From assembly GCA_016201275.1 (NCBI GenBank), contig JACQDB010000122.1, forward strand, positions 1 through 64,000: a DNA stretch of 64,000 nt, written 5' to 3'. Below the pieces are notes generated by a model that saw only the letters and a list, made by a program, of their open reading frames with translations, was not told the DNA's origin and did not search any database. The stretch comes from Acidobacteriota bacterium (GTDB taxonomy: Bacteria > Acidobacteriota > Blastocatellia > UBA7656). The position numbers and the translations under genes were made by a program. The stretch's first letter is position 1. Each line of letters opens with the position of its first letter. This document shows, in pieces, positions 22,309-38,103 of this stretch.

Positions 22309-22845
22309 ATGCTCGACCTTTTTTCTGTTGCAGTTGTCTTTATCAGAGCAGGTGCGCTTTTGATCATTGCGAACACAATGTCGGCAATTCCGCCTATGTG
22401 GGGTGGGATCAGAGAGGCTACTTATTCTCCACCGTTCACAATCTCTATAATACTCGTTGGCGCGTTGAGCCAGCTTCTGCTGGCTTTATTGCTGCTAATC
22501 TTTGCAAAAAAGCTCGCCCGATTTATCACCAAAGGATTAGTGGACACAAGCATTCAAATTACGGAAACCAATACCAGTCATTTGCAAGCCGTAGCTTTCT
22601 CAACACTGGGAGCGTATGTTCTCCTATACTCAATCCCTAGACTTATCGAATTAATTCTTATTATAGTTCTCCCGGACAACAAACAAAGCGACTACAGACA
22701 GCCAATGACGGTTCCTGTTGAATTCATTGTAGAGCAAGTAGTACGAGTAGCCTTTGGTCTTTGGCTCCTATTGGGATCTAAAGGCATAGCTATTTTGATA
22801 AAGAATTTCTGGATGACGAGAATATCGGCTGACAGTGCAGAGTAA
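22309..22845 (+). CDS. Hypothetical four-helix membrane protein
   Basis: A 178-residue membrane protein with about four hydrophobic segments and no recognised motif. GAGGAG precedes the ATG. It follows COX4 by 45 bases on the same strand, so it might be co-transcribed, but its DNA is visibly more AT-rich than the oxidase genes, which suggests recent acquisition. A hairpin at 22907-22939 lies downstream. Confidence 0.75.
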   Translation: MLDLFSVAVVFIRAGALLIIANTMSAIPPMWGGIREATYSPPFTISIILVGALSQLLLALLLLIFAKKLARFITKGLVDTSIQITETNTSHLQAVAFSTLGAYVLLYSIPRLIELILIIVLPDNKQSDYRQPMTVPVEFIVEQVVRVAFGLWLLLGSKGIAILIKNFWMTRISADSAE

Positions 22846-22906: not shown

Positions 22907-22939
22907 ACAAAGGCAAGCTTCATTCAAGCTTGCCTTTGT
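22907..22939. terminator. Bidirectional hairpin terminator between convergent genes
   Basis: A perfect 14-bp stem ACAAAGGCAAGCTT/AAGCTTGCCTTTGT with a 5-base loop. The T-tract is imperfect on both sides. It separates the plus-strand gene ending at 22845 from the minus-strand gene ending at 22972. Confidence 0.75.
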
Positions 22940-22971: not shown

Positions 22972-24228
22972 CTATTTTGCCATGCGTAAATTTCGCCAAG
23001 TGGTCTCCGTTATGGTATTGCCTTTGTCGTCCAACGCCACCACCCGCCAGCGAAATTTTCCATCACTCGATTTTTCCTGCAACCACGAAGGCGCGTGATA
23101 ACTGGCCGCGCCGGGTAATAAAACCGCCGATAACACCGGCACTTCTTGAGCGTCGGCGATCTCTATGCGATAAAATGCCGCGCCGGAAATTTCCGTCCAC
23201 TTGAACACGGCGCTCGGCGTTTTCTGCAACACCGCGTTATCCAGCGGCGCAAGCAATTGCAAACCACTCGCTGTCGCATCAATCGCCGAGAGGCCGCCGC
23301 TGCCTATGTAATAACGCAGCACCGGCAACGAAAAACCCGCGACGCCGCCGCTTGTGGCAAGCTCTTGGCCTGCGCCCAACGCCTGCAAATCGGAGTTACC
23401 ATTTTGATCTTCAACCGCTTCGATTCTCAACAACACCAGATACATTCCTTCAACAGGATTTTCCAGTCGCCAGCTTTCCGGCCCCTGCAAAATAAATTTG
23501 CCGGTCGGCGGCAGATAGCTGTTGAAGCGGCTGAGTTGGGTATATCGCCTTTGCGAACCGCGCTGCTCGACCGGCAAGGTGGATTCGGTCAACAGGTCGC
23601 GCTCACTTGGCAGCTCGTCGCCAGGCTTGACGATTTCCCAGCGACCGCGCAATCTGCCCGATCCTGTATAAGTGATTTCGGCCTCTATTTTCGGCACTTT
23701 TTCACCGACTTTCAAAAACAGCACAGGCTTGTTGAGGGCAAACGCGAGTTTCACATTGGTCAACGAAAAAGGCGCAGCCGCGCCGTTGCCCGATAAACGT
23801 ATGGTCACCGGCACATATTCATCTGCGCCGCCTGCGGGGTTGACGAAACGACGGACGTAATAAAAGGTCGCGGGTGCGCCTCGCGTCGCGTCAACGTAAG
23901 CGCGGCGCGCCACCGATGGCGGTATGGACATAATGTCCGTGTAAGTAGAATTGGCGCTCAAGGTGGATTGATTGTAGCGCACTGGCAGGCAGCCGTATTG
24001 CGTCGCCTGATTGCATTTCAAACCGATGTCGGGAGCGGCAGAAACCACCTCGCCGCAGAAGCAACCTTCGACCGGGCGTTTATTTTTGACGTTGCTGAAG
24101 GTGAGCAAAGCCGAAGTTGCGCCCTGCGAATAGGCGTTGATATTCGACGGCGAAACTTGAATCTCCTGCGCCGCTGCGCTGGTGAGCAAGCCTGTGAAAA
24201 AGATGAGCGTGAAAACAATTCTTTTCAT
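22972..24228 (-). CDS. Exported protein with CxC motif and Ig-like C-terminal domain, unknown
   Basis: A 418-residue exported protein. ATG 24228 follows GGAG and opens a signal peptide (MKRIVFTLIFFTGLLTSAAAQ). The N-terminal part has four cysteines (CFCGEV, LKCN, GCLPV), likely disulfides or a metal site. The middle is beta-rich, and the C-terminal 90 residues resemble a fibronectin-III-like domain (KWTEISGAAFYRIEI, FRWRVVALDDKGN). I recognise no characterised family. It is the last of six minus-strand genes for exported proteins and probably works with the beta-barrel protein upstream. Confidence 0.8.
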   Translation of the reverse strand: MKRIVFTLIFFTGLLTSAAAQEIQVSPSNINAYSQGATSALLTFSNVKNKRPVEGCFCGEVVSAAPDIGLKCNQATQYGCLPVRYNQSTLSANSTYTDIMSIPPSVARRAYVDATRGAPATFYYVRRFVNPAGGADEYVPVTIRLSGNGAAAPFSLTNVKLAFALNKPVLFLKVGEKVPKIEAEITYTGSGRLRGRWEIVKPGDELPSERDLLTESTLPVEQRGSQRRYTQLSRFNSYLPPTGKFILQGPESWRLENPVEGMYLVLLRIEAVEDQNGNSDLQALGAGQELATSGGVAGFSLPVLRYYIGSGGLSAIDATASGLQLLAPLDNAVLQKTPSAVFKWTEISGAAFYRIEIADAQEVPVLSAVLLPGAASYHAPSWLQEKSSDGKFRWRVVALDDKGNTITETTWRNLRMAK

Positions 24229-24328
24229 TGCGAACTCCAAAATGTGAAAACGCGTGTGAGGTGCGAGACCCGGAAGCCTCCTTGACCTCGAAGCCACTAC
24301 GAAGGGAAGCGGAAAGAAATAGCCTCCG

Positions 24329-24406
24329 GTTGAGAAGCGGTCTGTGACCGCCTGTTGAGAAGCGGTCTGTGACCGCTGGACTGGCGGTCGCAGACCGCTT
24401 CTCAAC
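24329..24406. repeat. Three copies of a 23-bp repeat, two direct and one inverted
   Basis: GTTGAGAAGCGGTCTGTGAC plus CGC occurs at 24329-24351 and 24354-24376, and its complement with one change at 24384-24406. Copies two and three can form a long hairpin. The GTTGAG(A/C)AGCGGTC module also forms the internal hairpin of the MITE-like elements at 16617 and 55722. It lies inside the gap between two genes of the exported-protein cluster. Confidence 0.9.
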
Positions 24407-24439
24407 GAGAATTATGGGATTATATTTTCTTCCCCTTCC

Positions 24440-26974
24440 CTAAAAGAACGTAAAGCTCATGCCGATGTTCAGGGTTTGAGCCTTCGTGCGAGTGTCCAGA
24501 CCAAAAGCAAAGTCCCGCGCCTTCGCATAGCGATTGGCGTAGCGAATGAAGGCTTGACCTTGCAGCTTTTTGAATTTCTCTTTGCCAATAGTGAATTGAT
24601 AAGACCACTGCACATCGAGTTCGAGATTGCGATTGCGATTGGTTTTTGCCGTGTCGCCCAACAACGTATGCGACAGATTCGTAGCTAACAAATTGTGTTG
24701 CGTGATGCGCCAATTGATACTGTTGGCAAAGCGAAAGGTGCGGTCGGTGCGCTGGTTTTCTATGCTTCTGGCCTGCTCCATGCTGAACTCGAAATTTAGA
24801 TCAAGGGTTTTGGTAGCGTTGATGCCGGTGGAAATCGCGTGAACGAAATTGAACAAGTCGGCTTGCTCGCGTCCGCGCTGTTGATTGTTCTGCACCGAAT
24901 GATTGAAGCGATAACCGAGGCGCAGTTTGTTCAACTGCCAGTCGGAGGTGAAGCTTTGATTGGTTCCAAGAAAATCAGGTATCGCTTCGGGGGCAATCTC
25001 GAAACCGCCGTTGATGGGAAGCGCCGCGCCGAATTGATGTATGCGGTCGAGCGTGTAAGAGACTCTCGGCAGCAACGCCTTCGGTTGGTTGGCATCGCCA
25101 AAAATTGCGGTGAGCGGCGCGCCTATGGAAAAGCGTTCGGCACGCGATAAGGATTTCAATATCGAAGGCACATCGCGCAGATTATCGTGGAAGCGGATAA
25201 GCGAAAACTGCGCGAGAATTTCGCCAACATTGCCAATCAGTTCAAATTGATTTTGCGTTTTGTCGGCCTGGGTTGATGCGCCCAAACTGCGATAAAGCGG
25301 GTCAACCGTTTCGTGACGATAGTTGAAGGTCAAAGTCGCTTTGCGGGTTTTCGTCACCTCGACATCTTTCAAAATGTCGAATCCGGCTTCAAGGTAGCGA
25401 GCGTTTCTGGCCAGGTTCGGCACTTCGACAACCGCCAGTCCTTGATTCACCAAGGGGTCTGCGGGGTTGATAAAGACGCTGCGCGCAAAACCGCCATCAA
25501 CGCGCAGGCGTTGTTTCGGGTCGCTGGCGAGGATGCGAAAACCCAGGCCGCGACTGCGCTCTACATCGTTGATGCTGCTTTGCGACACACTGTTCAAAGC
25601 TTGCACATAGCCACTGAAATACGTAGCTTCGAGGCGCAAGCCGCTGGGTCGGCTCTTGATGAATTCGACGCCCAGAGTGCCGCCCAAAATCTGGTGTTGG
25701 CGGTTGCTCAGTCCGAAAAAATTTTCGATGCCGACAATGCTAGTGCCGTTCATCGCCGCAAGCGTCAAGTCAAGACCCTGCGGCAAAGGCAAGGTCATGG
25801 TAATGCCGCGACTGGAAAAGCTGTTGACCAGCAGGCGATTGGTTCCGTAAGCGGTATGGCCGACGAGGAATTTCGCTTTGCTGATTTGAAACTGCATCAG
25901 GTAACTGGCCAGGTCTAGGCGCGGCGCGTCGTTGCCCAATTGCCCGAAACGCAAAGCCTCCTGTTGAAAGCTGGAACCGGCGATGTCGAATTGATTTTGC
26001 GAAATGAAGATGCCGCGTGCCGCTTCGCTTTTGAACGAGCCTTGCACGGTGACATCGGAAAAGGTCGGGCGCGACGGGCGATTGGTTGCGGGGAAGTGCG
26101 ATTCGGCGGCCTGCGATTTATAGCCGATGGTCAGAGATGGGGTGAAATCAAGTTTGTCAAAGCCGCCGCGCTTACCTGTCGGTTCCGCCTGCGCGGTCGT
26201 AGTGGTTGACGCAGGCGAAGCGGTCGCGGCGTCTGTCGTAGTGCTGGAAGCGTTCGCTGTTGAACTCGAAGCGTTGGTTGTGGCGCTCGTTGTGGTTGCA
26301 GGGGGCGCGCCGTTTGTCGCGCTCGTGGGGTTTGCAGGGGGCGCGCCGTTTGTGGCGTTCGTGGTGGTGGCGCTCTCTTGATTTGTAACTGCATTGGTTA
26401 CAGATGGCTTATCATTTGCCGAAGGTTTTGCGGCCTTCTCGACGGCGTTGGCGGTGGTGCCGTTTGGCGTTTCGGTTGCCGGTTTTTCAGGGTTATCGGC
26501 AATTTGGGACTCGCTTATGCCTGGCGTTTGTTGACCGGGTTTTTGATTGGCGACGCGCAAGGTGAAGCGGACGATCTCGCGCCACTCTTCAGCAGGCGAA
26601 ACCAGATAAACCGTCAAAGCATTTTCGCCCACGGGGAGCGGCAGAATTTTGCGATTGTAGGTCAGCGTCTGTTGGAAAGGCGTAAACAGACTGGTCAAAT
26701 CGGTTTGCCCGATGAGGATGGCCAGGCGACCTTCAGATTTTTTCAACTCGCGGCTCAACCGCAATTCGATTTTGTCATTCGGCAGAAGGGTCTGATGGTC
26801 GGCAAGGTTAAGCGTGATTTGCAAATCGTTGGCTGGCGCGGCGGCGTGGCTTTGCACGAAAGCCTGCGCGAAGTATTCGGCTCTGGCAAAGGCCATCACG
26901 ACGACCAGGCCGATGGCCAGCGCGGCAACGATTTTTTCTATGACAGACTTGGTTTTTTGACTTGCTTTGCTCAT
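24440..26974 (-). CDS. Large predicted outer-membrane beta-barrel protein with Thr/Ala linker
   Basis: An 844-residue protein with an N-terminal signal/anchor (VAALAIGLVVVMAFA), an Ig-like domain (about 45-145: DKIELRLSRELKKSEGRLAI, LTYNRKILPLPVGENALTVY), a linker of about 130 residues rich in Thr, Ala, Ser, Pro and Asn (about 150-275), and about 560 residues of alternating beta pattern ending MSFTFF, as expected for an outer-membrane barrel. The Ig-like domain would sit in the periplasm. The function is unknown; transport of a polymer or surface protein is a guess from context. It lies between the paralogous secreted genes and the CxC protein. Confidence 0.75.
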   Translation of the reverse strand: MSKASQKTKSVIEKIVAALAIGLVVVMAFARAEYFAQAFVQSHAAAPANDLQITLNLADHQTLLPNDKIELRLSRELKKSEGRLAILIGQTDLTSLFTPFQQTLTYNRKILPLPVGENALTVYLVSPAEEWREIVRFTLRVANQKPGQQTPGISESQIADNPEKPATETPNGTTANAVEKAAKPSANDKPSVTNAVTNQESATTTNATNGAPPANPTSATNGAPPATTTSATTNASSSTANASSTTTDAATASPASTTTTAQAEPTGKRGGFDKLDFTPSLTIGYKSQAAESHFPATNRPSRPTFSDVTVQGSFKSEAARGIFISQNQFDIAGSSFQQEALRFGQLGNDAPRLDLASYLMQFQISKAKFLVGHTAYGTNRLLVNSFSSRGITMTLPLPQGLDLTLAAMNGTSIVGIENFFGLSNRQHQILGGTLGVEFIKSRPSGLRLEATYFSGYVQALNSVSQSSINDVERSRGLGFRILASDPKQRLRVDGGFARSVFINPADPLVNQGLAVVEVPNLARNARYLEAGFDILKDVEVTKTRKATLTFNYRHETVDPLYRSLGASTQADKTQNQFELIGNVGEILAQFSLIRFHDNLRDVPSILKSLSRAERFSIGAPLTAIFGDANQPKALLPRVSYTLDRIHQFGAALPINGGFEIAPEAIPDFLGTNQSFTSDWQLNKLRLGYRFNHSVQNNQQRGREQADLFNFVHAISTGINATKTLDLNFEFSMEQARSIENQRTDRTFRFANSINWRITQHNLLATNLSHTLLGDTAKTNRNRNLELDVQWSYQFTIGKEKFKKLQGQAFIRYANRYAKARDFAFGLDTRTKAQTLNIGMSFTFF

Positions 26975-27100
26975 CGTCTTTCACCTCGTGGGCGAGATTC
27001 ATCAGTGGTCGGCGTATGGGTACTCAAGCAAATTGTTTTATCAGGTGGCGCGCTACAGACTCAGAGCGCGCCACTGAAGCGCAGATTATTCGTTCATTCT

Positions 27101-27820
27101 TTATTGACCTTTGCAGGTGTCGGCGAAGTGATCGGCGTCGCTTGTGCTGTCGTTGCCTTTAAGGGTTTTGATAATCAAACGCGCTCCCAAGACCAGACAA
27201 GTGAAAGTCAGAGCAAAGACCGGCGCGGCTGCCGAGGCCGGTCTATAAGCGGCGCGGGTCAAGGGAAATTCCGATGGAAATATGCCTTCGCGGTTGAAGC
27301 CAACGGCGCGTCTTTGAAAGATCGGGTCCGCGAGAAACTGATCTACGCGGTTGAGTTGATCGGCAATGTTCGAGGTGCCGTCCAATATGTTATGCGCGCC
27401 GCCTGCCGATTGCAGTTTGCTTGCCGCTGCTGCATTTTTATTGCGAACCGCGTTCACTACGAAATTGTCTTGCTCGACATACTTGTTGGCCGCTTTCAGT
27501 TTGTTGATAATCGCCGACAAGTGGTTCTTCATGGTGTTGAGTTGCGTTTTGGCGCGCAGCAGATCGGCGCGCACGCTTTGAATTTCGGCGGCGGTGGGTT
27601 TGGCTTTGGCTTTCAAGTCGGCGATTCTGACCGGTATGCCTTCCCAGTTTTTCAGGTAATCCGACGAAGCATTGATAAACGAATCCGCATCAAGCGAGAT
27701 GGCGGCCTTCAATTGTGGCGACAGGAATTCATCAGTTGCGGCCTGGCTGTAGGAAGTGGCGAAACTCGCCAATAAGGTCAAGACCACCAACCTAGATAAG
27801 GTTTTGTGTAATCGTTTCAT
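27101..27820 (-). CDS. Exported helical protein, paralogue of its upstream neighbour
   Basis: A 239-residue exported protein with a signal peptide (MKRLHKTLSRLVVLTLLASF, cleavage near SQA). A long helical stretch (about 60-150, coiled-coil-like) leads to AAYRP...VFALTFTC and a C-terminal hydrophobic segment. The blocks TAAE...LSAIINKLKA and AAYRP match the next gene upstream (28039-28788) at low identity, so the two appear to be diverged tandem duplicates. GGAGAACCC precedes the ATG. Function unknown. Confidence 0.78.
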   Translation of the reverse strand: MKRLHKTLSRLVVLTLLASFATSYSQAATDEFLSPQLKAAISLDADSFINASSDYLKNWEGIPVRIADLKAKAKPTAAEIQSVRADLLRAKTQLNTMKNHLSAIINKLKAANKYVEQDNFVVNAVRNKNAAAASKLQSAGGAHNILDGTSNIADQLNRVDQFLADPIFQRRAVGFNREGIFPSEFPLTRAAYRPASAAAPVFALTFTCLVLGARLIIKTLKGNDSTSDADHFADTCKGQ

Positions 27821-27881
27821 GGGTTCTCCTTTAATTCAGTTGAAAAGTAAGGTAGGGGGTCAAGGAGGAGAGAAAAGAAAA

Positions 27882-27950
27882 GTTTGGCGTCGCGCCTTTA
27901 GGCGGCGGCTGCCGCAAACCATAAACCCGTCGGAAGGCGCAACGCCAAAC
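27882..27950. repeat. Imperfect hairpin element between the helical paralogues
   Basis: Arms GTTTGGCGTCGCGCCTT and AAGGCGCAACGCCAAAC pair with one mismatch around a GC-rich loop. The flanks (GGAGGAGAGAAAAG... and ...CTCTCTCCTCTTT) extend it weakly. It resembles the elements at 12487-12554 and 14052-14085. Confidence 0.75.
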
Positions 27951-28038
27951 TCCCTCTCTCCTCTTTGCTCCACTACCAAAAGTAATTTTTTCGAGTAGGG
28001 TCACGGCTGACCTTACTCGAACGATCAGACGTGCGGCA

Positions 28039-28788
28039 TCATTCGGCGAACAACTGGCTACAGGCCGCTCCATCGGCGTCGCAAAAACAATTGACCGCGA
28101 GGATGGATTTATCCGAAGGGCCGCTGCCCGGATGAAACGCCCCGCTGATACCGCCGCGAATGTAGGCAAGGCTGCAGCGCAGATTGAATGTGAACACCAC
28201 AGGCGTCGGGCGATAGGCGACCGCAACAGCGCGTGATGCCAACAGCGAATGGTTTGGTTCAAAGAGAGAGTCTTGCGCCTGCGCTCGTATGCGGTTGCGA
28301 AGCAGGTCGAGCGGCGCGCTGATTTCATTGGCGTTGCCGGAAAGATTTGCCGCCGTTTCCTCTAAAACTTTTTTGAAACCGTCGCGGCGAACTCTGGATT
28401 GAAATTTCGCGTCGCTGATTTTCGCCAGCACTATGGCGTCAAGATTATCGAATTGGCCTGTAGCCTTGAGCTTGCGAATGATTTCGCGCAAGGTGCTTTG
28501 CATTGCGGAGAGGCGATTCTTGAGGCTGTTGGCAAGGCGTTGATGCGTCTCGAATTCGGCGCGGGTCAAGGAAGATTGTTTGTTCAATTCCGCAACTTTT
28601 TTGTCAAACAGGCTGAGTTCATTCACCAGACGGTCGAGCGCCTGAAGCTCGCTGATGAGATTGGCGTCGCTGGGCGGACGTGAAGCCGCTTGACTGTTGA
28701 GTAGCGGGCGGAAACCGGCGAATAATATCAGCGCGGCGATGGCCAGCGCGAAGCTGATCGGATAGCGATTGCGTTGGTGTTTCTCCAT
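28039..28788 (-). CDS. Exported helical protein with Cys-rich tail
   Basis: A 249-residue protein starting at ATG 28788 (AAAGGAG upstream). One N-terminal membrane segment (FALAIAALILFAGF) is a signal peptide or anchor. A coiled-coil-like region (about 45-140: LDRLVNELSLFDKKVAELNK) precedes a conserved VAYRPTPVVFTFNLRC block, and the tail carries CFCDADGAAC. It is paralogous to the gene at 27101-27820 but has the extra cysteine tail. The function is unknown; the layout suggests a periplasmic or surface structural component. Confidence 0.78.
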   Translation of the reverse strand: MEKHQRNRYPISFALAIAALILFAGFRPLLNSQAASRPPSDANLISELQALDRLVNELSLFDKKVAELNKQSSLTRAEFETHQRLANSLKNRLSAMQSTLREIIRKLKATGQFDNLDAIVLAKISDAKFQSRVRRDGFKKVLEETAANLSGNANEISAPLDLLRNRIRAQAQDSLFEPNHSLLASRAVAVAYRPTPVVFTFNLRCSLAYIRGGISGAFHPGSGPSDKSILAVNCFCDADGAACSQLFAE

Positions 28789-28975
28789 GATGTTCGTCTC
28801 CTTTACGGCCAGGCTTAACTTCCGATCAGTGAGTTGAAAGTAAGCCGAAAACTCGCGGGTTCCGACCGCTGGCGATATTGATTTGCCGTCGGCCAGGTGC
28901 CTCGAGAGTAGCGGCAGTTGGCTTATCGTACAGACAGCGACAACTGCCGCAGGTTTGACCGGCTTCAAGCGCGGA

Positions 28976-29416
28976 TTACAAATTCAAGAAAGATTGACCG
29001 AAGGGTTTGAGCGTGATGGTAGCGGTGACGGTCGCTTCTACCTTGTCAATTCCGGCGATGCTGCGGAATTTGGCGATGGCACGACGCTCGCCGCCGCCGA
29101 CGTTCAAGACTTCTTTGCCTAAGAGGTTGCCGCCGACATTGCGTTTGGCTCTGACTTCAACATTGAAGGCTTGGGCTTGCAAGCAAGTGTCAGGGCTGCC
29201 GAATTCCCAGGTCACTTCAAAATCGCTGCGCCCCAGGTCGCGGACTTTGACATTTTTGACATAAGAAAAATCGCATACCCCAAAGGCAGGCGCAGGCGCG
29301 GCGGCGGCGACGGTGTTGGCTTTGACGGCGGGGTTTTCGATGCCTTTCAATCCGCTCATGGCCAGGCCCAGAGTTAATACGAATACAAATGATGCGAACA
29401 TGATTTTACGTGTCAT
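28976..29416 (-). CDS. Small exported beta-rich protein
   Basis: 146 residues with a clear signal peptide (FASFVFVLTLGLAMSGLKG) and AAGGAG before the ATG. The mature part has two cysteines (FGVCDF, DTCLQ) and an all-beta pattern with VKNVKVRDLGRSDFEVTWEF and FNVEVRAKRNVGGN, resembling a single Ig/fibronectin-like sandwich. It is similar in plan and in the VKN...W motif to the upstream gene at 29541-29978. Function unknown. Confidence 0.78.
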   Translation of the reverse strand: MTRKIMFASFVFVLTLGLAMSGLKGIENPAVKANTVAAAAPAPAFGVCDFSYVKNVKVRDLGRSDFEVTWEFGSPDTCLQAQAFNVEVRAKRNVGGNLLGKEVLNVGGGERRAIAKFRSIAGIDKVEATVTATITLKPFGQSFLNL

Positions 29417-29540
29417 TGGGTTTCTCCTTAAAAAAATTGTGTTATGGGTTGAAGGAAAGCGGTCAACGCGCCTTCCCGTTACAGTGCTGCATCTTTATGT
29501 GCCAGTCCTTGCTGAGGGAACCGGCGTGATAAAAGACCGA

Positions 29541-29978
29541 TTAAAAATTGCCCTGTTTTATTGTGGTTTCCGTGAAATTGGCCGTGAGGGCGGCCTTGAA
29601 ACTCCGCAACTCCGCACGGAGTCTGCCAGGCACAAGGTGCAGCGTCGGCACTTCAAATCGAGCTTTGCGGTCGGTGCTGCTGGCGGAAGTTTTAAAGCGT
29701 TCAATCGTGCCGTCTGCATAAGCTACTTCAAGGACGGCATCGAAAGACTTGATTGAAAGCGGCGGTTGAGCGTTCACCGCCCACTGCATTTGCAGTATGG
29801 ATTTACTCTCGTTGCTTGCCGATACGCCGAGGTTTTTCACTTCGGTGAGGTCAACCAGTGAGGCAGAAACGAAAGGTTGCGCTTGCATTTTTATGGCTGC
29901 GGCAAGCAGTATGAAAACCGCAAGCAGCAGCCCTGCACTCATCAATCGTGTTGGTTTTAAGTTGTTGTTGGTCTTCAT
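29541..29978 (-). CDS. Small exported beta-rich protein, first gene of the cluster
   Basis: 145 residues starting at ATG 29978 (GAGG eight bases upstream). A signal peptide (AGLLLAVFILLAAAIKMQAQ) precedes a predicted beta-sandwich containing VKNLGVSASNESKSILQMQW and FDAVLEVAYADGTIERF. It lacks the two cysteines of its downstream paralogue. It is the first gene of the six-gene minus-strand cluster, with a divergent promoter region upstream. Confidence 0.75.
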   Translation of the reverse strand: MKTNNNLKPTRLMSAGLLLAVFILLAAAIKMQAQPFVSASLVDLTEVKNLGVSASNESKSILQMQWAVNAQPPLSIKSFDAVLEVAYADGTIERFKTSASSTDRKARFEVPTLHLVPGRLRAELRSFKAALTANFTETTIKQGNF

Positions 29979-30057
29979 AACTTGCCTCTTTTTCGCTTCG
30001 TGCTGCGAGTTTCTGTTGCTGCGACAACGCGGACTATAGGCCAAGCTGGTTTCGTCT

Positions 30058-30093
30058 AGCGTGGCATTTTCCGAATTCCGAAAATGCCACGCT
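30058..30093. promoter_or_regulatory. 14-bp inverted repeat in the divergent intergenic region
   Basis: AGCGTGGCATTTTC (30058-30071) and GAAAATGCCACGCT (30080-30093) are perfect complements around an 8-base centre. No T-tract follows on either strand, so an intrinsic terminator is unlikely. The position between the divergent starts at 29978 and 30165 suits an operator controlling both directions, though a dispersed palindrome is possible. Confidence 0.55.
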
Positions 30094-30112
30094 GAAAAAA
30101 AATCATTCGTTC

Positions 30113-30118
30113 TATAAT
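30113..30118 (+). promoter_or_regulatory. Possible -10 element (TATAAT)
   Basis: A consensus TATAAT lies 46 bases before the ATG at 30165, just downstream of the inverted repeat. No good -35 is visible at the right distance, so the assignment is tentative. Confidence 0.4.
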
Positions 30119-30164
30119 CCGTCGGTACAGCCGCAAAAGGCTTTTCACACGAGGGCAATGTCTT

Positions 30165-32258
30165 ATGGATCGAACCGAGAATGTTGATGCTGCTATGCAC
30201 CACGCCTTGCAACTCGCTTTCTTCATACACGGCGACAAAGCGACGGCGACGCAGGTTGCCGCACAGGCATTGAGCAAACTACAGTTGGCGGCACAGGCGC
30301 AGGACAAGCGGCTCTATTACACGCCGAGCGGTCGCGCAGCGGCGCGCTCGGCGCGCACCAAAGTCTCGCTGGGTGAACATCATCTGCTGCAACGCCTCGT
30401 TTACATCGAATCGGAAGCGTTCGAGAAACGCCGAGAGGCCGAAGGGCAGGTGGACGCGGAAGACCTGATGATTCATTTCATCAAACACCTGATGAAGATT
30501 ACGCTCAAGCGCAACTCGTTTTATGTGGCGTTAGGTCTTAGCCGTCTGCTGCACAATTATTCAACGGCAGAGACTATGGAGATTTATAATTTGGTGGTGC
30601 AGGACCCTGAGCGTGTGCGCGATGATTATTATTATCGTTCGCGCAAGGCGCGTTTGATGACCGAAATGAAAGAGCGCTTCGGTGAACTGATTAAAGCGAC
30701 GCGCCAAAATCGCGGCGAAGAGCGTTTTGAATCCGATACGCTTTCCGGCCTCAGCAAGCCATTGGTCAGCGAATGCCTTGAGCAGTTCACGCCTTGGCAG
30801 ACGCGCTGCATCTTGCCGGAAAAATTCGACCCGACCCGCGAGGTTATCAAAGGGTTGTCGTTTGCCAGTAAAGACCCAGATGCCGAACACGCTATCGAAG
30901 TCAATCGCTTTCATTCGCTGATTCACCCGGATTGTTATCTGCACCTGGTTGACGCTTTGCAGTTTGATACTCCCGCCAACCGTCTGGACATCCCGCGTTT
31001 TTATCTTGCGGAGAAGGCACAGAAACCGCCGCGCAATCGCCACTCATCAAATTGGAGCGACACGGATATGGACGACATGAAAAACCATTTACGCGAACAG
31101 GCGGCGCGACGCAAAAGCTTTTCGGCCAACCTGCTACGCCTACTCGTGGACGGCGTCGAACAACAGACGATGGATTTGCGACGCGCCACACAGTCGCAAC
31201 TTTATGTGCAGGGAGATGCCGAGTTGATGGAAGTCATCGGCGTCAACGGCAAGGAAGAGGTGTTGTTGGCGGTGCGTTTATTCGATGAAGCGTCGGTGAA
31301 AAATTTGCGGACGGCGATTCGTTTGGAAGGCGGACAGGAGATCGCTTTCACCTTGACGCCGAGTTTCGATTCCGTAGGCGAAATCGAAGAGATGTTGGTG
31401 GAAGTTGGCTATAGCGAAACGCATCTATGGCGGGCGGCAAGATTAGCTATGCGGCAAAGCCTGACGCGATGGAGTGAGGTGATGACGGGCGGCGCGATTG
31501 TGGGTTGGGCAAAGCCGGCATTGGCCTTGGCGTTACTTGCGTTGTTGGTTGCAGGCGTGTGGTTTTTTGCGCGGCGCGGCAATGATTTTTCCAAGCATCA
31601 GCAACAGGCGCAGAAGGAAAAGCAAACACCCGCGTCCAACGAAAAACGCGAAGTTGCGCCGACGCCTGAGCCGAAACAAAATCAGGAGAAACCACAACAG
31701 GCGGAGAATCAAAATCCGCAAACGCCGCCAGCAACGAAGCCGCAGGAGCCGCCGCCTGCGCCCAGACAAAATAACCGGCAAACTTCGCCGGTTGCGACTA
31801 CTGATTCAAAACGCAAATCGCCAGACGTGAGCGCGCCGCGTCATCAAGTGCCGCTTGCGCCTGACCAACAAGATACCATCGCCATCGTGCCAGACACTCG
31901 CGGCAGTGTTCCTAGACCGACCGGCTTGCTATTGCCGGAAGTGAAATCCATTGCGCTTGATGTGCAGGGCGATGAAGAGTTGAATCAGCAGTTGACGGAA
32001 AAATTAACCGCCGCCTTCGCCTCAACCAGTCGCTTCAAATTGGTCGAGCGCAATCAGGCCGACGCTTTGTTAAAGATTTTTATCAAACGTGAGAAGTCCG
32101 GCGCGGTGTTCAGTGTGCGTCTGGCAAACGATAAATTGTTCGTGATTTTCCCAATCGAAGCAAAATCCGCGAGCCGAAAATACACCGGCTCGCCCGAGGT
32201 GGTCGCCGCGAAAATCCTCAGCGATTTAGTAACCGCAAGCGGCAAACGGAAACCATAG
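30165..32258 (+). CDS. One-TM protein with large cytosolic domain and periplasmic C-terminal domain
   Basis: A 697-residue protein of unknown function. The first 440 residues are cytosolic; the start (HALQLAFFIHGDKATATQVA) recalls the first helices of ECF sigma factors, but I see no region 4. A membrane helix lies at about 447-467 (PALALALLALLVAGVWFFAR), followed by a Gln/Pro/Lys-rich linker of about 120 residues. The C-terminal domain of about 120 residues (LPEVKSIALDVQGDEELNQQ, RFKLVERNQADALLKIF) resembles the alpha/beta fold of CsgG/FlgO-like envelope proteins. It is divergent from the six-gene exported cluster and may sense or control its assembly; this is inference from position and topology. 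Confidence 0.75.
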   Translation: MDRTENVDAAMHHALQLAFFIHGDKATATQVAAQALSKLQLAAQAQDKRLYYTPSGRAAARSARTKVSLGEHHLLQRLVYIESEAFEKRREAEGQVDAEDLMIHFIKHLMKITLKRNSFYVALGLSRLLHNYSTAETMEIYNLVVQDPERVRDDYYYRSRKARLMTEMKERFGELIKATRQNRGEERFESDTLSGLSKPLVSECLEQFTPWQTRCILPEKFDPTREVIKGLSFASKDPDAEHAIEVNRFHSLIHPDCYLHLVDALQFDTPANRLDIPRFYLAEKAQKPPRNRHSSNWSDTDMDDMKNHLREQAARRKSFSANLLRLLVDGVEQQTMDLRRATQSQLYVQGDAELMEVIGVNGKEEVLLAVRLFDEASVKNLRTAIRLEGGQEIAFTLTPSFDSVGEIEEMLVEVGYSETHLWRAARLAMRQSLTRWSEVMTGGAIVGWAKPALALALLALLVAGVWFFARRGNDFSKHQQQAQKEKQTPASNEKREVAPTPEPKQNQEKPQQAENQNPQTPPATKPQEPPPAPRQNNRQTSPVATTDSKRKSPDVSAPRHQVPLAPDQQDTIAIVPDTRGSVPRPTGLLLPEVKSIALDVQGDEELNQQLTEKLTAAFASTSRFKLVERNQADALLKIFIKREKSGAVFSVRLANDKLFVIFPIEAKSASRKYTGSPEVVAAKILSDLVTASGKRKP

Positions 32259-32482: not shown

Positions 32483-33601
32483 TTATTTATCCTTTGCTGC
32501 CTCACTTAGGTTCTGCTCGACGCGATCACGGAACTCATAGGCTGTAGGCAATACTTTGCGCGGCTTGGCTCCGTCCGCAGGGCTGATGAACCCTTCTCTC
32601 TCCATTGTATCGAGTATCTTCGCTGCGCGACCGTACCCGACTGATAATCTCCGCTGAAGCACCGAAGTTGAAGCGCGATCCATATCAGTGACTATGGCTA
32701 GCGCCTCATCGTAAAGCTCATCCTGCTCGCCAGCAGACTCACCCCTTTGCTCGCTCAAGGGCACTTTCTTAATTTGATTTTCCGTAGCTTTATCACCGAT
32801 TTCTGGTTTATTTGCTGATGTGCTTCGCCTAATCTCAGCGGCCTTGCTTATCTTGGCCACATCAGCGTCCATCGTATTTTCTGATTTTGATACCCCTTCA
32901 GAGTCCATTTGCACAACTTTGGCTGTATAAGTTTCAAGAGCCGCCTTTGCACGACTGCGTATAGATGATGGTTGTTCGGTACGCTTATCACTGCGTGTAT
33001 CAGAGGGTAGAATAGCTTGTGTTTGTCCTTGGGTTTTGAGGGCTGCAAAAGCAATGTTTATTTCCTTCATTCGACGCTCAGCAACTTCTCGAAATTCAGG
33101 AGCCAAACTTGCCACTTTATCAGGATGGTACATTTGAGCCATCCGTTTGTAAGCAGCACTTATTTCCTCTATAGAAGCAGATAGAGGAACCTGAAGCACT
33201 TCGTATGGGTTTTGGCTGTTTATTGCTGGCTCAGGCAGTTCTGGCGGGCTATAACTTTGCCTTTGTGGTTTATGGCGAACAAAAGGTTTATTTCCAGTAA
33301 TGATAGATATATTTTTTGAGCGACAACTTGGACAGGACGCAGGGGGAGTATTCTTTCGAGCTTGCCAGCGATAACCACAGTTATAGCAACCCATCTCACC
33401 GTACCATAGGTTGGGATCGCGTACTGGCGCAGTAGATGTATAAGAGGTTTTAGAATAATGGTTCGAAGTTGAATTACTACCTGCTTTGTTTATAGTCCCA
33501 ATAATTATGATGATAATGATGACAACAATAACTATAATAAGGCGCACATCAGTATCTATGTTATTTTTGCTTAATAGCAATAGGATAATAGATGCTGTCA
33601 T
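32483..33601 (-). CDS. Membrane zinc-ribbon/J-domain/FtsK-gamma fusion protein
   Basis: A 372-residue protein with an unusual architecture. A hydrophobic segment at about 20-36 (LIIVIVVIIII) anchors it. A zinc ribbon follows (C72, C75, C90, C93). A J domain covers about 130-190 with the catalytic HPD at 159-161 (AQMYHPDK), able to stimulate an Hsp70. The C-terminal part from about 294 to 353 matches the winged-helix gamma domain of FtsK (VLQRRLSVGYGRAAKILDTM, ISPADGAKPRKVL), which reads DNA polarity sequences in true FtsK. No FtsK motor is present. AAAGG precedes the ATG. DNA is AT-richer than in most neighbours. Confidence 0.85.
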   Translation of the reverse strand: MTASIILLLLSKNNIDTDVRLIIVIVVIIIIIIIGTINKAGSNSTSNHYSKTSYTSTAPVRDPNLWYGEMGCYNCGYRWQARKNTPPASCPSCRSKNISIITGNKPFVRHKPQRQSYSPPELPEPAINSQNPYEVLQVPLSASIEEISAAYKRMAQMYHPDKVASLAPEFREVAERRMKEINIAFAALKTQGQTQAILPSDTRSDKRTEQPSSIRSRAKAALETYTAKVVQMDSEGVSKSENTMDADVAKISKAAEIRRSTSANKPEIGDKATENQIKKVPLSEQRGESAGEQDELYDEALAIVTDMDRASTSVLQRRLSVGYGRAAKILDTMEREGFISPADGAKPRKVLPTAYEFRDRVEQNLSEAAKDK

Positions 33602-33750: not shown

Positions 33751-36700
33751 TTATTTCGGTTCGCCCTGCAACACGAACGCCGCCCAATAATAGGGCGATG
33801 ACCAGCGCCGGTTTTTTGCCATAGAAGCTTGCGCGGCGCGTAACGCAGCGGCTGGCGAGAACTTCTCTTTGCCCAACATCGCTTGGTAAAAACGCGACAT
33901 CAATGCTGCTGTTGCTTCATCATCAACATCCCACAAACTGACCAGCACACGCGCTGCTCCGGCGTACATGAAACCGCGTGTCAATCCCATCAAACCTTCG
34001 CCGCGAATCTCTTTGCCCAAGCCGGTGCGACAACCGCTCAAGACCACAAGTTCGGCGGGCAATTTTAAATTATAGATTTCATGAGCGCGTAGGAAACCGT
34101 CCGCTTCGTTGCCCTCCGAGTCAATCAGCGAAAGCACGATGCCGGATAATTCCGGGTGCGCGGTGTTTAGAAAACCGTGCGTGGCGAAATGCACATAGCG
34201 ATATTGCTCTAGCTCTTGACTTAAAGCGGTGGTTTTATTTGCCTCGAAATCTATCGCCACTTTGTGTTGCGAAGCGGGAACCAGCCGTAAAATAGCTTGC
34301 GCTTCGAGACGGGTGAAAGGCATTCGCGGCAAAGCCATGCCGTCACTCTCTAGCCCCACTTCTCTGGCGGCGCGGGTTACATCGCTTTCTCTTTTGGGAG
34401 GGCTTTCGCTTTCTCTTGTCGAGGTTTTCTCGCTTTCCGGCTTGGGCATTTTTTCGCTTTCTCTTATCGAGGTTTTTTCGCTTTCCGGTTTGGGCATTTT
34501 TTCGCTTGCTGTGGAGGTGGTGGAGGCGCTCCGGGTCTCAGGTTTTGCGGTGGTCGTGTTGGGTTGCGACTTCGATGCGGTGGTCGTGTTGGTTTGCGAC
34601 TGCGATGCGGCAGCGTTTGGCGCGGCTGAATCACTGCGACGGTTGGCGCGATTGCGAGCTTGGGCGAGGACTTGTGCCGCTCTTTTTTTATGGGCTTTGG
34701 CAGCGGTCAACCGCTCGTCGTTTTTGTCGAAAATGGGGTCAGCAAAAACCGCTATAGTTTTCGGCGCGGGTTGGCGATGGTAGATTTCGCGACGCACTAC
34801 GGCAAGCGTGGAAGCCGAAGGCAGATAGACGATTTCATTACTCACGCCAAGCAACGAAGCTTTGACATGAGTTTTTTCAGGCAAGGGCAGCGCGGCAAAC
34901 GGTATGTATTGCAAAGCCCCGTCGTTGACCACGAGCAGTCGCTGGTTCTTCAATTCGGCGGCTACTGGCGCAAGAATCATTTGTGATAGAGCGGCGGCGG
35001 TTGATGGTAATTCGGCGTCGGCTTGTGCTAGGCGTTGCTGGCGTTCAGCAAGGGTTTCAAACTTTACGGTTTTATTGCGCGCCGTCAGGTGTTCATAAAA
35101 TTGCTTTGCCAAAGTTTCAATCTCGGCGCGTTTGGGCAAGTCAAAAGCCTTGATGGAATCTTTGGTGATGGCAAAAAGATAGCTGCGTTCATCGCCCAGC
35201 GCATATTCCAGTAACAGCGCGTCTGCGTCAAGCACTTGCTGTTGGAGGTCTGCCACAGAGAGGGCTTGCGGTTGCGTCAGCGCCGCATATTTCGGATTGG
35301 TTTGGCGAATCTTTGCCTCCATTTCCTGCAACTGGTTGCTGATCGTTTCAAGCTCTGTACGCCCCAACTCTTTTTTCTCCTCGGAAGCTTTGCTGCTCAG
35401 TAGGCGTGTGACTTGATAGGCTTTGCTGTTGAGTTGCGTTTTTAATTCGCGTTCCTGTTTCAACAAAGTTGCGTCAATGCCTTGCCGTATGTCGGCATTG
35501 GCTTCGCTTAAAGATTCTAAGAGGGTGCGAGCTTTTGCCTGATCGTTCACTTGCATTGCCGCCGCCAAATAATTTTTTGTCGGGTCTTGCCTGTGCAGTC
35601 GCATCAGCAAATCTGTATAAAGCTCGTAGGGTTTGATTAACGCAGCAAAATAGGCGGCGCGTAGTTGTTGCATCTCCACCTTGGTGCGTAACGATTCAAC
35701 CAAACGTATGGCGCGTTGAATTCCGGCAACGGCTTGTTGGAGATTGCCCAACTTTCCTTGCAGTTGAGCGATGTTATATTCGATTTCGATTTCCGCAGTT
35801 TTTTCACCAATGCTGCGGACAATGGCGAGAGCTTGAGTAAAATAATTCAAAGCGGTTGGCGCATCCGCGAGTTTATTGTAGAGCTTGCCCAAGTTGTTGA
35901 AGACCACAGCCTCGCCGCGTCGTTCGCCAATTTTCTGGCAAATTGCCAGTGATTGATGCAAGTTTTCAAGAGCTTTTGGCGTATCGCCTGACCGTGTATA
36001 GACGCCGCCGAGATTTTTCAGCGTAGCGGCTTCCGAGCCAATGGCTCCGGTCTTTTTGTGAATCAGCAGCGCCTGATTATAGTAGTCAAGAGCTTTGGGC
36101 AAATCATCCAGCGCATCGTAAACCAAACCTATATTATTGAGGGTTACGCCTTCGCCGCGCAGGTCTTTAACGGCGCGGCGAATTTGCAGAGACTTCTCGA
36201 AATAATCCAGGGCTTTGTCAGTTTCGCCCAACGAGCTATAAAGTGAGCCGAGACTGGCGAGCGTGTAGGCTTCACCGAAAGGGTCTTTTGCCTCGCGTCT
36301 GAGCGGCAAGGCTTGGCTGAAATAATCCAAGGCTTGCTGTTTTTCGCCCAGCCGGTCATAGACCAAACCGATATTACTCAAGGTCACGGCTTCGCTGCCT
36401 CGGTCTCCTGTGGCGCGTAAAAGCGTTAAAGCGGGTAGGTAATACTCCAGCGATTTTTGCGTTTCGCCGGTCGTGTAATACGTCAGCGCGATGTTGTTCA
36501 GAATATTGCCTTCCAGCACGCGGTCATTAGCGGTTTGACTCAAGAGCAAAGACTGATTGAAATAGCTGAGAGCTTTGGGGAACTCTGCCAGCGAGTAGTA
36601 GATTTCGCCCAGGTAATTTACTGACGCGGCTTCTTTGGCGGTATTGCCTAACTGCTGCCATAGAGGGATGACTTCGGCAAATTTCACTATACCGGCTTTG

Positions 36701-37236
36701 CGAGATTCTAAAGTTCCTACGGCTCTATAATCATTTAATCCGCCTGCAAACAGTTGATGAGCGTTGATAAAGATGCTGTCTTGAGCCACTGCCGGTCGTA
36801 GCTCTTTGACTTCGATTTCATATTTGCCTGCCGCGTCTTTTGCCAGCGAGCGCACTTCCAAGCGATAAGTGCCGGAGAGTTTAGTGAGGAAAAATATAGG
36901 CTCCAATCCCTCTGTGCCATTCGGGCTATCCACTTCAAGCGCCTTTACGCCAGTCGGATCAAACAGCGTGACTGCTACATCAATGCCTTTTTGTTCGACA
37001 ACGGCGTGAAGAAAAAAACCTGCCTCGGCGGTCAATTGGTAAAGGTGTGCTTGGTCGCCGCTCATCTCTCGTAAGACCGGCTGGGTTACGGTGAGCGCGC
37101 GAGGCTCTTGCGCTTGTGCATAAATAATAATTGGCTGGAAGCAAGACAGCAGTATGATTGCTAAAGAGTAGCAGACTGCTTGTCGAAGAAAATTTAAAGA
37201 GAAGTGTGAAAAATAACGAAAGACGATTTGCTCCAT
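33751..37236 (-). CDS. Secreted TPR-CHAT protease-like protein
   Basis: A 1161-residue protein: signal peptide (ATG 37236, with GGGTGGG before it), a PPC-like beta domain (about 40-145), about nine TPR repeats of 40 residues (about 165-560), a helical region, and a C-terminal CHAT domain with the caspase-like His (VHFATHGF) and Cys (VLSGCRTGLG). CHAT domains are clan CD peptidases often tied to signalling or cell death. Before the catalytic part, a low-complexity stretch contains the direct repeat SEKMPKPESEKT(S)(I/T)RE twice (48 bp each). It was probably exported to the periplasm. It is followed 150 bases later by the J-domain gene on the same strand. Confidence 0.9.
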   Translation of the reverse strand: MEQIVFRYFSHFSLNFLRQAVCYSLAIILLSCFQPIIIYAQAQEPRALTVTQPVLREMSGDQAHLYQLTAEAGFFLHAVVEQKGIDVAVTLFDPTGVKALEVDSPNGTEGLEPIFFLTKLSGTYRLEVRSLAKDAAGKYEIEVKELRPAVAQDSIFINAHQLFAGGLNDYRAVGTLESRKAGIVKFAEVIPLWQQLGNTAKEAASVNYLGEIYYSLAEFPKALSYFNQSLLLSQTANDRVLEGNILNNIALTYYTTGETQKSLEYYLPALTLLRATGDRGSEAVTLSNIGLVYDRLGEKQQALDYFSQALPLRREAKDPFGEAYTLASLGSLYSSLGETDKALDYFEKSLQIRRAVKDLRGEGVTLNNIGLVYDALDDLPKALDYYNQALLIHKKTGAIGSEAATLKNLGGVYTRSGDTPKALENLHQSLAICQKIGERRGEAVVFNNLGKLYNKLADAPTALNYFTQALAIVRSIGEKTAEIEIEYNIAQLQGKLGNLQQAVAGIQRAIRLVESLRTKVEMQQLRAAYFAALIKPYELYTDLLMRLHRQDPTKNYLAAAMQVNDQAKARTLLESLSEANADIRQGIDATLLKQERELKTQLNSKAYQVTRLLSSKASEEKKELGRTELETISNQLQEMEAKIRQTNPKYAALTQPQALSVADLQQQVLDADALLLEYALGDERSYLFAITKDSIKAFDLPKRAEIETLAKQFYEHLTARNKTVKFETLAERQQRLAQADAELPSTAAALSQMILAPVAAELKNQRLLVVNDGALQYIPFAALPLPEKTHVKASLLGVSNEIVYLPSASTLAVVRREIYHRQPAPKTIAVFADPIFDKNDERLTAAKAHKKRAAQVLAQARNRANRRSDSAAPNAAASQSQTNTTTASKSQPNTTTAKPETRSASTTSTASEKMPKPESEKTSIRESEKMPKPESEKTSTRESESPPKRESDVTRAAREVGLESDGMALPRMPFTRLEAQAILRLVPASQHKVAIDFEANKTTALSQELEQYRYVHFATHGFLNTAHPELSGIVLSLIDSEGNEADGFLRAHEIYNLKLPAELVVLSGCRTGLGKEIRGEGLMGLTRGFMYAGAARVLVSLWDVDDEATAALMSRFYQAMLGKEKFSPAAALRAAQASMAKNRRWSSPYYWAAFVLQGEPK
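34403..34506 (-). repeat. 48-bp in-frame tandem repeat in the CHAT gene
   Basis: Two consecutive 48-bp units, read on the minus strand as SEKMPKPESEKTSIRE and SEKMPKPESEKTSTRE, lie in the disordered linker before the CHAT domain. A partial third unit follows. Confidence 0.8.
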
Positions 37237-38103
37237 GACCCACCCCCACAGTTGGCAGCTAAGATTAAGCGCACACGGTAATGATGCCAAAGTGACTACT
37301 TGATCTGGCAAATTTGTTTGAGGAGAAACTTTTCGGACAGGTCATCATAGCAGCGCCTTCATTTGGTCTCAATGCAAATGCAGAGTATCAGGCAAGCACG
37401 GCTCGGCAGGGTCATTGAGTTTTCGACGATGAAGTTGAATTTCTTGCAGCGCAAGCCCTGATGGATGGCACACCAAGATGTGTAGGGGTCGCAGGCACAA
37501 GTCAGTACCGGGAGCGGTAGCGACCGGGTAAGGACTCGATACCCGGTCGCTACCGCTCCCGGTACTGACATCGCGCTTGGCATACCCGGTCGCTACCGCT
37601 CCCGGTACTGACACCGCGCTCGGCATCTTGGTGTATCGCTCATATAGGGCATTCAATAAGATTTCCCCTGGCGCCTATCGCCTTCCATTATGAGCGGCTT
37701 GAAAAAATAAATTTCGCGCTTGCGACAAGCTGTTTGAGCGGCTTATTCTTACACTTCTTTTCGCGCCTGGAAAACGGCTACAGGATGTTGACCTTGATGA
37801 TGCTTTCGCACCAACTACCGCAACGACTCGCGCCTGATATGCTTTCGGCAAATGGCGTTGGTTGTCTGCGCCTGTCGCAACTGTTTCGCTGTCTGGTGCT
37901 GTATCGTTTGATTGATAGCTTGTTCCCGCGTCCGGCAATTATCCCTTCCTTTGCGCCTTCTGCATCTTGATAGGATTTTCCTGCGATTTCCCTTACAATT
38001 TGCTTTTAACGACGCCCAACGCGGCTGACATTTTGATACCAACTGCATAGCGATTGAAACGCGGTTGCTTGCCACCAAGCAGCGCGTTACGGAAATAAAA
38101 AGT
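37237..38103. other. Gene-poor interval upstream of the molybdenum hydroxylase operon
   Basis: About 870 bases between divergent genes. Short ORFs here have no recognisable features. The interval holds the repeat cassette at 37471-37633 and should carry the promoters for both the CHAT gene and the hydroxylase operon. Confidence 0.6.
37471..37633. repeat. Repeat cassette: 30-bp repeat in three copies, bounded by an inverted repeat
   Basis: A 30-bp sequence beginning GTCAGTACCGGGAGCGGTAG lies at 37501-37530; its complement follows at 37540-37569 and 37583-37612. The last two are part of a 43-bp tandem unit (37540-37582 and 37583-37625). The whole is bounded by CACCAAGATG (37471-37480) and CATCTTGGTG (37624-37633). 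Strong cruciform or hairpin potential; no coding capacity. Confidence 0.9.

Follow-up and report, generated by a model that had tools for sequence, protein, structure and literature searches.

The window analysed here is a 64,000-nucleotide stretch of contig JACQDB010000122.1 (positions 1 to 64,000; assembly GCA_016201275.1) from an Acidobacteriota bacterium of the Blastocatellia, and it holds a seven-gene envelope locus (G1 to G7) for which an initial annotation, made from the letters alone, had proposed a self-contained export or surface-assembly machine with its own controller. Each of the seven reading frames was confirmed (Table 1), with start positions corrected for the long open reading frames of G1, G4 and G6. 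Six consecutive minus-strand genes run in the order G6, G5, G4, G3, G2, G1 (29978 to 22972) and are spaced 124-218 bp apart, each opening with a signal-peptide-like N-terminal stretch, which supports their earlier description as exported proteins, and G7 diverges from G6 across an intergenic region of 186 bp. None of the seven reaches a family cut-off in Pfam or NCBIfam; the initial annotation had recognised none as part of a known secretion, pilus or curli system. The genes are real: homologues of G1 and G2 across phyla have kept 37-68% (G1) and 26-60% (G2) identity.

Table 1. Features of the locus and its surroundings, in window coordinates (aa, amino acids; Ig, immunoglobulin; pLDDT, predicted local distance difference test score).
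Feature	Position	Strand	Description
G1	22972-24228	-	418 aa, exported partner, three beta-sandwich domains; invariant core component
G1 domain D1	23779-24165	-	beta-sandwich
G1 domain D2	23293-23775	-	beta-sandwich
G1 domain D3	22975-23271	-	FN3-like beta-sandwich
G2	24440-26974	-	844 aa, outer-membrane protein; invariant core component
G2 N-terminal Ig-like (periplasmic) domain	26552-26827	-	residues 50-141; predicted, pLDDT about 88-96
G2 Thr/Ala-rich disordered linker	26180-26533	-	residues 148-265; unconserved, variable length
G2 26-strand beta-barrel	24446-26155	-	residues 274-843; predicted, conserved outer loops
G3	27101-27820	-	239 aa, exported coiled-coil, Cys-containing C-terminus; paralogue of G4; candidate cargo
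G4	28039-28788	-	249 aa, exported coiled-coil; paralogue of G3; candidate cargo
G5	28976-29416	-	146 aa, small exported Ig-like; candidate cargo
G6	29541-29978	-	145 aa, small exported Ig-like; candidate cargo
G7	30165-32258	+	697 aa; cytosolic domain, one membrane helix, linker, periplasmic domain; putative signalling protein
TPR-CHAT protein	33751-37311	-	exported; caspase-like His/Cys dyad HFATHG / LSGC; usual G7 neighbour, recurrent neighbour of the G2-G1 pair
Palindrome	30058-30093	.	36 nucleotides, 14-bp arms, 8-bp centre; G6/G7 divergent intergenic region; possible operator
Hairpin	22907-22939	+	14 pairs; between convergent genes 22309-22845 and G1; likely terminator

The conserved unit at this locus is smaller than seven genes, and G2-G1 is its constant core. 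Among 58 related genomes the two genes share the same 10, adjacent wherever the assembly permits, and in an evenly drawn sample of 396 Acidobacteriota genomes 15 have both at full length and none has only one of them. When genome contigs were scanned with the G1 family, 71 loci emerged; G2 stands directly upstream of G1 at all those that have sequence there, and at the six without a usable G2 match G1 lies at most ~330 bp from a contig end. By record title these loci belong to Acidobacteriota, Gemmatimonadota, Cyanobacteria, Gamma- and Betaproteobacteria and a few others, where the labels of metagenome-assembled genomes are the submitters' own and may be wrong. Carriers include Nostocales HT-58-2, Hassallia byssoidea, Chamaesiphon polymorphus and FACHB-63 among cyanobacteria and Paraglaciecola arctica among proteobacteria, and the G1 family had no match in plasmids and viral contigs. 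Conservation of the gene neighbourhood, the check put forward in the initial annotation, is therefore found for the pair, whose synteny holds in several phyla, and the members do not all resolve into a known pathway. The machine proposed there survives as an unrecognised kind of export or surface-assembly locus with conserved synteny, but not as a self-contained unit of seven with its own controller, since G3-G6 vary and most pair loci have unrelated regulators in place of G7.

A very divergent G2-G1-like pair in another acidobacterial family (L151, L152, L153 and L155) keeps the gene order and recognisable GSG-L-WE and FYVR motifs. At L151 and L155 this pair is directly preceded by an exported two-repeat protein of ~480 residues.

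G2 was modelled from a 51-sequence alignment (mean pLDDT 82, low mainly at the N-terminus and in the linker), and the model has the composition described earlier, namely an Ig-like domain, a Thr/Ala linker and a barrel. In the predicted structure most strand blocks of the barrel exceed a pLDDT of 90, the barrel ends in Phe, and the secondary structure gives no sign of an inserted plug domain. The best structural neighbour is MtrB (Z 17.6, 470 aligned, root-mean-square deviation (rmsd) 6.2, 8% identity), with SprA (Z 16.5, rmsd 11.9), FimD (Z 16.0, 376 aligned), PapC (Z 14.2) and many porins as further neighbours; the top Foldseek match is the Deinococcus SlpA/SDBC barrel, and LptD and AlgE are also among the matches. 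As far as the model goes, these neighbours establish a barrel, not a family. If the N- and C-termini are periplasmic, as in other outer-membrane proteins, the long loops of the model would face outward. Conservation is higher in these outer loops (0.416) than in the periplasmic turns (0.302, p = 5e-7) or the strands (0.373, p = 0.004), a reversal of the pattern in porins, in which the outer loops are the most variable part (PMC4849052). Conserved as they are, the outer loops of G2 probably engage a constant partner or act as a constant gate.

The partner G1 is predicted to be a chain of three domains (mean pLDDT 91) whose structural neighbours are generic Ig and FN3 folds only, and its conservation, expressed as the mean majority residue, is 66% in D1, 64% in D2 and 42% in D3. 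It had been described as a CxC/Ig-like protein; the CxC motif does exist (C56/C58), but the family-invariant pair is C58 and C72, and this invariance suggests a Cys58-Cys72 disulphide. A PapD-type chaperone was ruled out for G1 by sequence, with no match. Compared by sequence with solved structures, G1, G2, G3/G4 and G6 gave nothing beyond chance.

The small exported neighbours are specific to their loci. G3 and G4 are related helical coiled-coil proteins with conserved C-terminal cysteines, and G5 and G6 appear, from sequence, to be small beta-sandwich or Ig-like proteins, in agreement with the two coiled-coil and two beta-sandwich proteins first described; G5, G6 and the cluster 14 small proteins of other loci share a remote mutual likeness. 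In the 58 genomes all six G6-type matches (three of them outside the training alignment) and both G5 matches fall at pair loci, and all nine G3/G4-type matches fall in pair-bearing genomes, six near the pair, two on a contig ending just beyond and one without a pair in view. Between two sister cassettes G5 is 78% identical, compared with 68% for G1 and 60% for G2. The neighbour set changes from locus to locus and sorts into several unrelated families, and other pair loci carry tandem arrays of small exported paralogues of up to seven genes; the count of such neighbours is descriptive only, as the signal-peptide heuristic is too permissive (37% of background genes positive). On the G2+G1 tree the neighbour type changes 3 times, compared with 7.9 times in shuffles (0 of 5000). 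One genome (G002) has two pair copies in different clades with different neighbours: one groups with the window and carries G5/G6, and the other groups elsewhere and carries P-domain proteins. A contig of another genome (L078, G003:C129) breaks off at two G4-type genes and the small 'FRGR..CKK' gene that at other loci stands before G2; this may be one more pair locus truncated by the assembly.

P-domain proteins were rejected as obligate cargo. Two loci, L161 in the source genome itself (contig C76:20500-40400) and L162 in genome G268, carry CHAT, extracytoplasmic function (ECF)-like, anti-sigma-like and P-domain genes in the same order with no G2-G1, and at L161 unrelated genes are interspersed in this module. 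The P-domain class therefore needs no pair in cis; the module is separable from the pair, and it is the module, not the pair, that is the constant company of this class.

G7 has the large conserved cytosolic part, the single membrane helix and the C-terminal periplasmic part that had been noticed at the outset, but the CsgG/FlgO match suggested for the latter was not found; three of 15 G7 homologues match LptE, weakly. A sigma-like nature of G7 was also considered and rejected, since no ECF or ECF-like alignment matched it when profiles were compared. Of the 58 relatives, 18 have G7 and 10 have the pair. G7 lies ~20 kb from the pair in G002, and at nine of 19 loci examined has a CHAT gene within ~1.5 kb of its homologue. 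CHAT matches number ~17 in the source genome and three in G032, one of these ~3 kb from the G032 pair. Because G7 occurs without the pair, often beside an exported TPR-CHAT gene, it is not a controller dedicated to the pair but one of several interchangeable signalling genes.

Unrelated regulators stand in for G7 at most pair loci. Signalling genes are found within five genes of the pair at 36 of the 71 loci, mostly just upstream, where they occupy 23-30% of gene positions -1 to -3 relative to G2 compared with about 5-9% downstream of G1. The kinds, assigned by sequence clustering where they were not scanned individually, comprise an ECF-like protein with a zinc-finger anti-sigma-like protein and an exported TPR-CHAT protein (L097, L110, L138), ECF with a Ser/Thr kinase-TPR protein (L085, L105, L112, L113, L133), kinase-CHASE2 or FHA proteins (L091, L093), a response regulator with a histidine kinase (L135, L140, L143, L146) and winged-helix TPR proteins (L081, L083, L104, L106, L108, L114, L141). 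In Hassallia byssoidea (L119, 3788-13696) the pair is flanked by CHAT-CHASE2 on one side and by a DUF1822 gene and an unassigned protein on the other. ECF and DUF1822 have been reported with caspase-domain genes (eLife 2021, PMC8195603), in a text that has no match for outer membrane or beta-barrel. A role of the pair locus in anti-phage defence was rejected, since PADLOC gave a TPR model for the CHAT protein and only weak matches of low-complexity or coiled-coil type.

Pairing, topology, loop conservation, neighbour linkage and regulator swapping are thus given by computation. Because the barrel and partner stay constant while the small exported proteins and the switch are specific to each locus, a layout like that of chaperone-usher systems, we read G2 and G1 as a possible two-protein outer-membrane platform for the export or surface assembly of small exported proteins, to which we give a probability of roughly 0.45. 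Sec would carry all parts across the inner membrane, as the signal peptides suggest, and the predicted 26-strand barrel of G2 would insert into the outer membrane and hold the Ig domain in the periplasm on a flexible arm. G1 may then dock on G2, most likely at the conserved outer loops or as a plug, and the Ig arm together with G1 would receive the locus-specific exported proteins (here G3-G6) and deliver them to the barrel, with G2 as the passage or the base for their display or assembly at the surface. To judge from gene position, each cassette copy would have its own cargo and be switched on by the adjacent signalling module, which for the window cassette would probably be G7 together with the exported CHAT protein. 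A wider claim, that G2-G1 is the core of an unrecognised outer-membrane protein secretion or assembly pathway of several phyla, with dedicated cargo cassettes and partly under the control of exported CHAT proteases that are caspase-like and coupled to ECF sigma factors, is more doubtful than the platform itself.

Several observations weigh against the platform. The conserved outer loops of G2 are equally compatible with a gated channel; proteobacterial pairs often have no exported neighbour and a regulator only; the P-domain neighbours also exist pair-free, in G268 and C76; the alignments behind the exclusivity of G5 and G6 are small; and the tree pattern of neighbour type is partly explained by vertical inheritance of neighbourhoods. 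An energy source or motor is not apparent either, although chaperone-usher systems also work without one of their own.

The strongest rival, unlikely in our estimation, is that G2-G1 is a channel through which a solute or polymer crosses the outer membrane, G1 being an accessory lid or plug, as LptE is for LptD or SusD for SusC, and that the exported proteins, like the regulators, take part in the same response without being cargo. The closeness in fold of the 26-strand barrel to MtrB, with LptD and AlgE among the matches, would suit such a channel, as would the proteobacterial pairs that stand alone with a regulator and the P-domain neighbours that can do without the pair. However, no recurrent transport, catabolic or polymer-synthesis genes lie beside the pair, the outer loops are conserved across phyla, and the G5 and G6 types occur only at pair loci in the 58 genomes. 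It is less probable still that G2-G1 is a structural surface complex that acts as an adhesin or outer-membrane anchor: G1 would then make up a coat together with the small Ig-like and coiled-coil proteins, and nothing would pass through the barrel. The SlpA/SDBC barrel as top Foldseek match, the beta-sandwich chain of G1 and the exported coiled-coil proteins of the window are in keeping with a coat, but the neighbours are too variable for a single one, and surface proteins of diderm bacteria would still require a route across the outer membrane. Least probable of the three is a surface sensor modelled on FecA-FecR-FecI, in which the barrel would sense the outside and its Ig arm would pass the signal across the periplasm to a regulator in the inner membrane (G7, anti-sigma, CHASE2 or histidine kinase): the signalling genes beside about half of the pair loci, many with periplasmic domains, and the periplasmic domain of G2 on its long flexible arm speak for it, but the regulators are mutually unrelated, several resemble soluble transcription factors, which would suit control of the pair more than signalling from it, no plug was noted in the G2 barrel, and G7 is mostly away from the pair.

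Returning to the platform, it would work like chaperone-usher or the type IX secretion system (T9SS) by analogy, and relatedness to either is not shown. In chaperone-usher systems (FimD/FimC, PapC/PapD), too, a single operon encodes an outer-membrane barrel and its multi-Ig partner next to small exported beta-sandwich proteins duplicated in tandem, and a genome has several copies with different subunits; FimD and PapC are among the fold matches of G2, amid many barrels. G2 differs in its 26 strands, in having no evident inserted plug in the model and in carrying its N-terminal Ig domain on a linker, and G1 has three domains, whereas the chaperone has two. At E<=0.1 the Usher Pfam family matched 0 of 51 G2 members and PapD_N or PapD_C 0 of 57 G1 members, and no scanned member matched a fimbrial Pfam family. 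The likeness to T9SS (SprA/PorV/PorU, with cargo bearing an Ig-like C-terminal domain) lies in the very large outer-membrane barrel, the Ig-like exported proteins, the nearby exported protease of caspase/gingipain fold (CHAT) and the ECF or two-component control. In contrast to T9SS, the barrel has 26 strands, the phyla are different and CHAT is not constant; no shared C-terminal sorting domain was noticed in the neighbours, by inspection and not by a systematic motif search, and no motor or GldKLMN-like genes were noted beside the pair in a search of the loci, not of whole genomes. PorP/SprF matched one of the 51 G2 members, weakly.

Other systems share fewer traits. MtrB (PF11854) of the MtrAB(C) conduit is the best structural neighbour of G2, but the identity is low and PF11854 matched only one of 51 G2 members (E=0.039), which falls short of MtrB/PioB family homology, and no multihaem cytochrome was noted among the neighbours by eye, no CXXCH count having been made. 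LptD-LptE also joins a 26-strand barrel and N-terminal beta-domain to a small partner; however, LptD chains rank low for G2, none of 51 members matched the LptD/OstA Pfam family, and the G2-G1 cassette is multi-copy with varied regulators. Two-partner secretion (TpsB/TpsA) is a gene pair of barrel and exported partner as well, but G1 is a compact Ig protein and not a long beta-helix, and POTRA or TpsB Pfam families (type Vb) matched 0 of 51 G2 members. The modules of ECF with CHAT or caspase and DUF1822 (PMC8195603) resemble the Hassallia locus, where CHAT-CHASE2 and DUF1822 flank the pair, yet they are only one of several regulator types beside it.

The open-access literature searched holds no description of the G2-G1 pair. 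Because none of the sequence families, specific fold families or papers found covers it, we class the pair as a new kind of outer-membrane system in both family and layout, with a hypothetical function. Two-protein outer-membrane machines are few and each has defined a field (usher/chaperone, TpsB/A, LptD/E), and G2-G1 is a compact candidate for another; its occurrence in the isolates Paraglaciecola arctica and Nostocales HT-58-2 makes it experimentally accessible. If the proposed pathway is true, it would give the many unexplained exported TPR-CHAT proteins of Blastocatellia a first physiological context.

Some minor features of the region remain. No Rfam family matched within 22-38 kb of the window, and a sigma-70 promoter scan gave no excess over chance. 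A 465-residue open frame antisense to G2/G3 (26378-27775, +) is judged to be a by-product of codon bias and not a gene. Between G7 and the CHAT gene, a reading frame at 32483-33601 has the odd combination of zinc-ribbon-like, DnaJ and FtsK-gamma domains, and a direct and inverted repeat element resembling repetitive extragenic palindromes (GTTGAGAAGCGGTCTGTGACCGC and its complement) lies between G2 and G1 (24323-24406). The hairpin parts G1 from the convergent gene, which has cytochrome-oxidase neighbours, and is likely a terminator bounding the cassette. The palindrome reads AGCGTGGCATTTTC-CGAATTCC-GAAAATGCCACGCT, folds far better than shuffled sequences (z -6.9) and occurs as a single copy in the 6.84-Mb genome, and from its sequence it is a possible operator.

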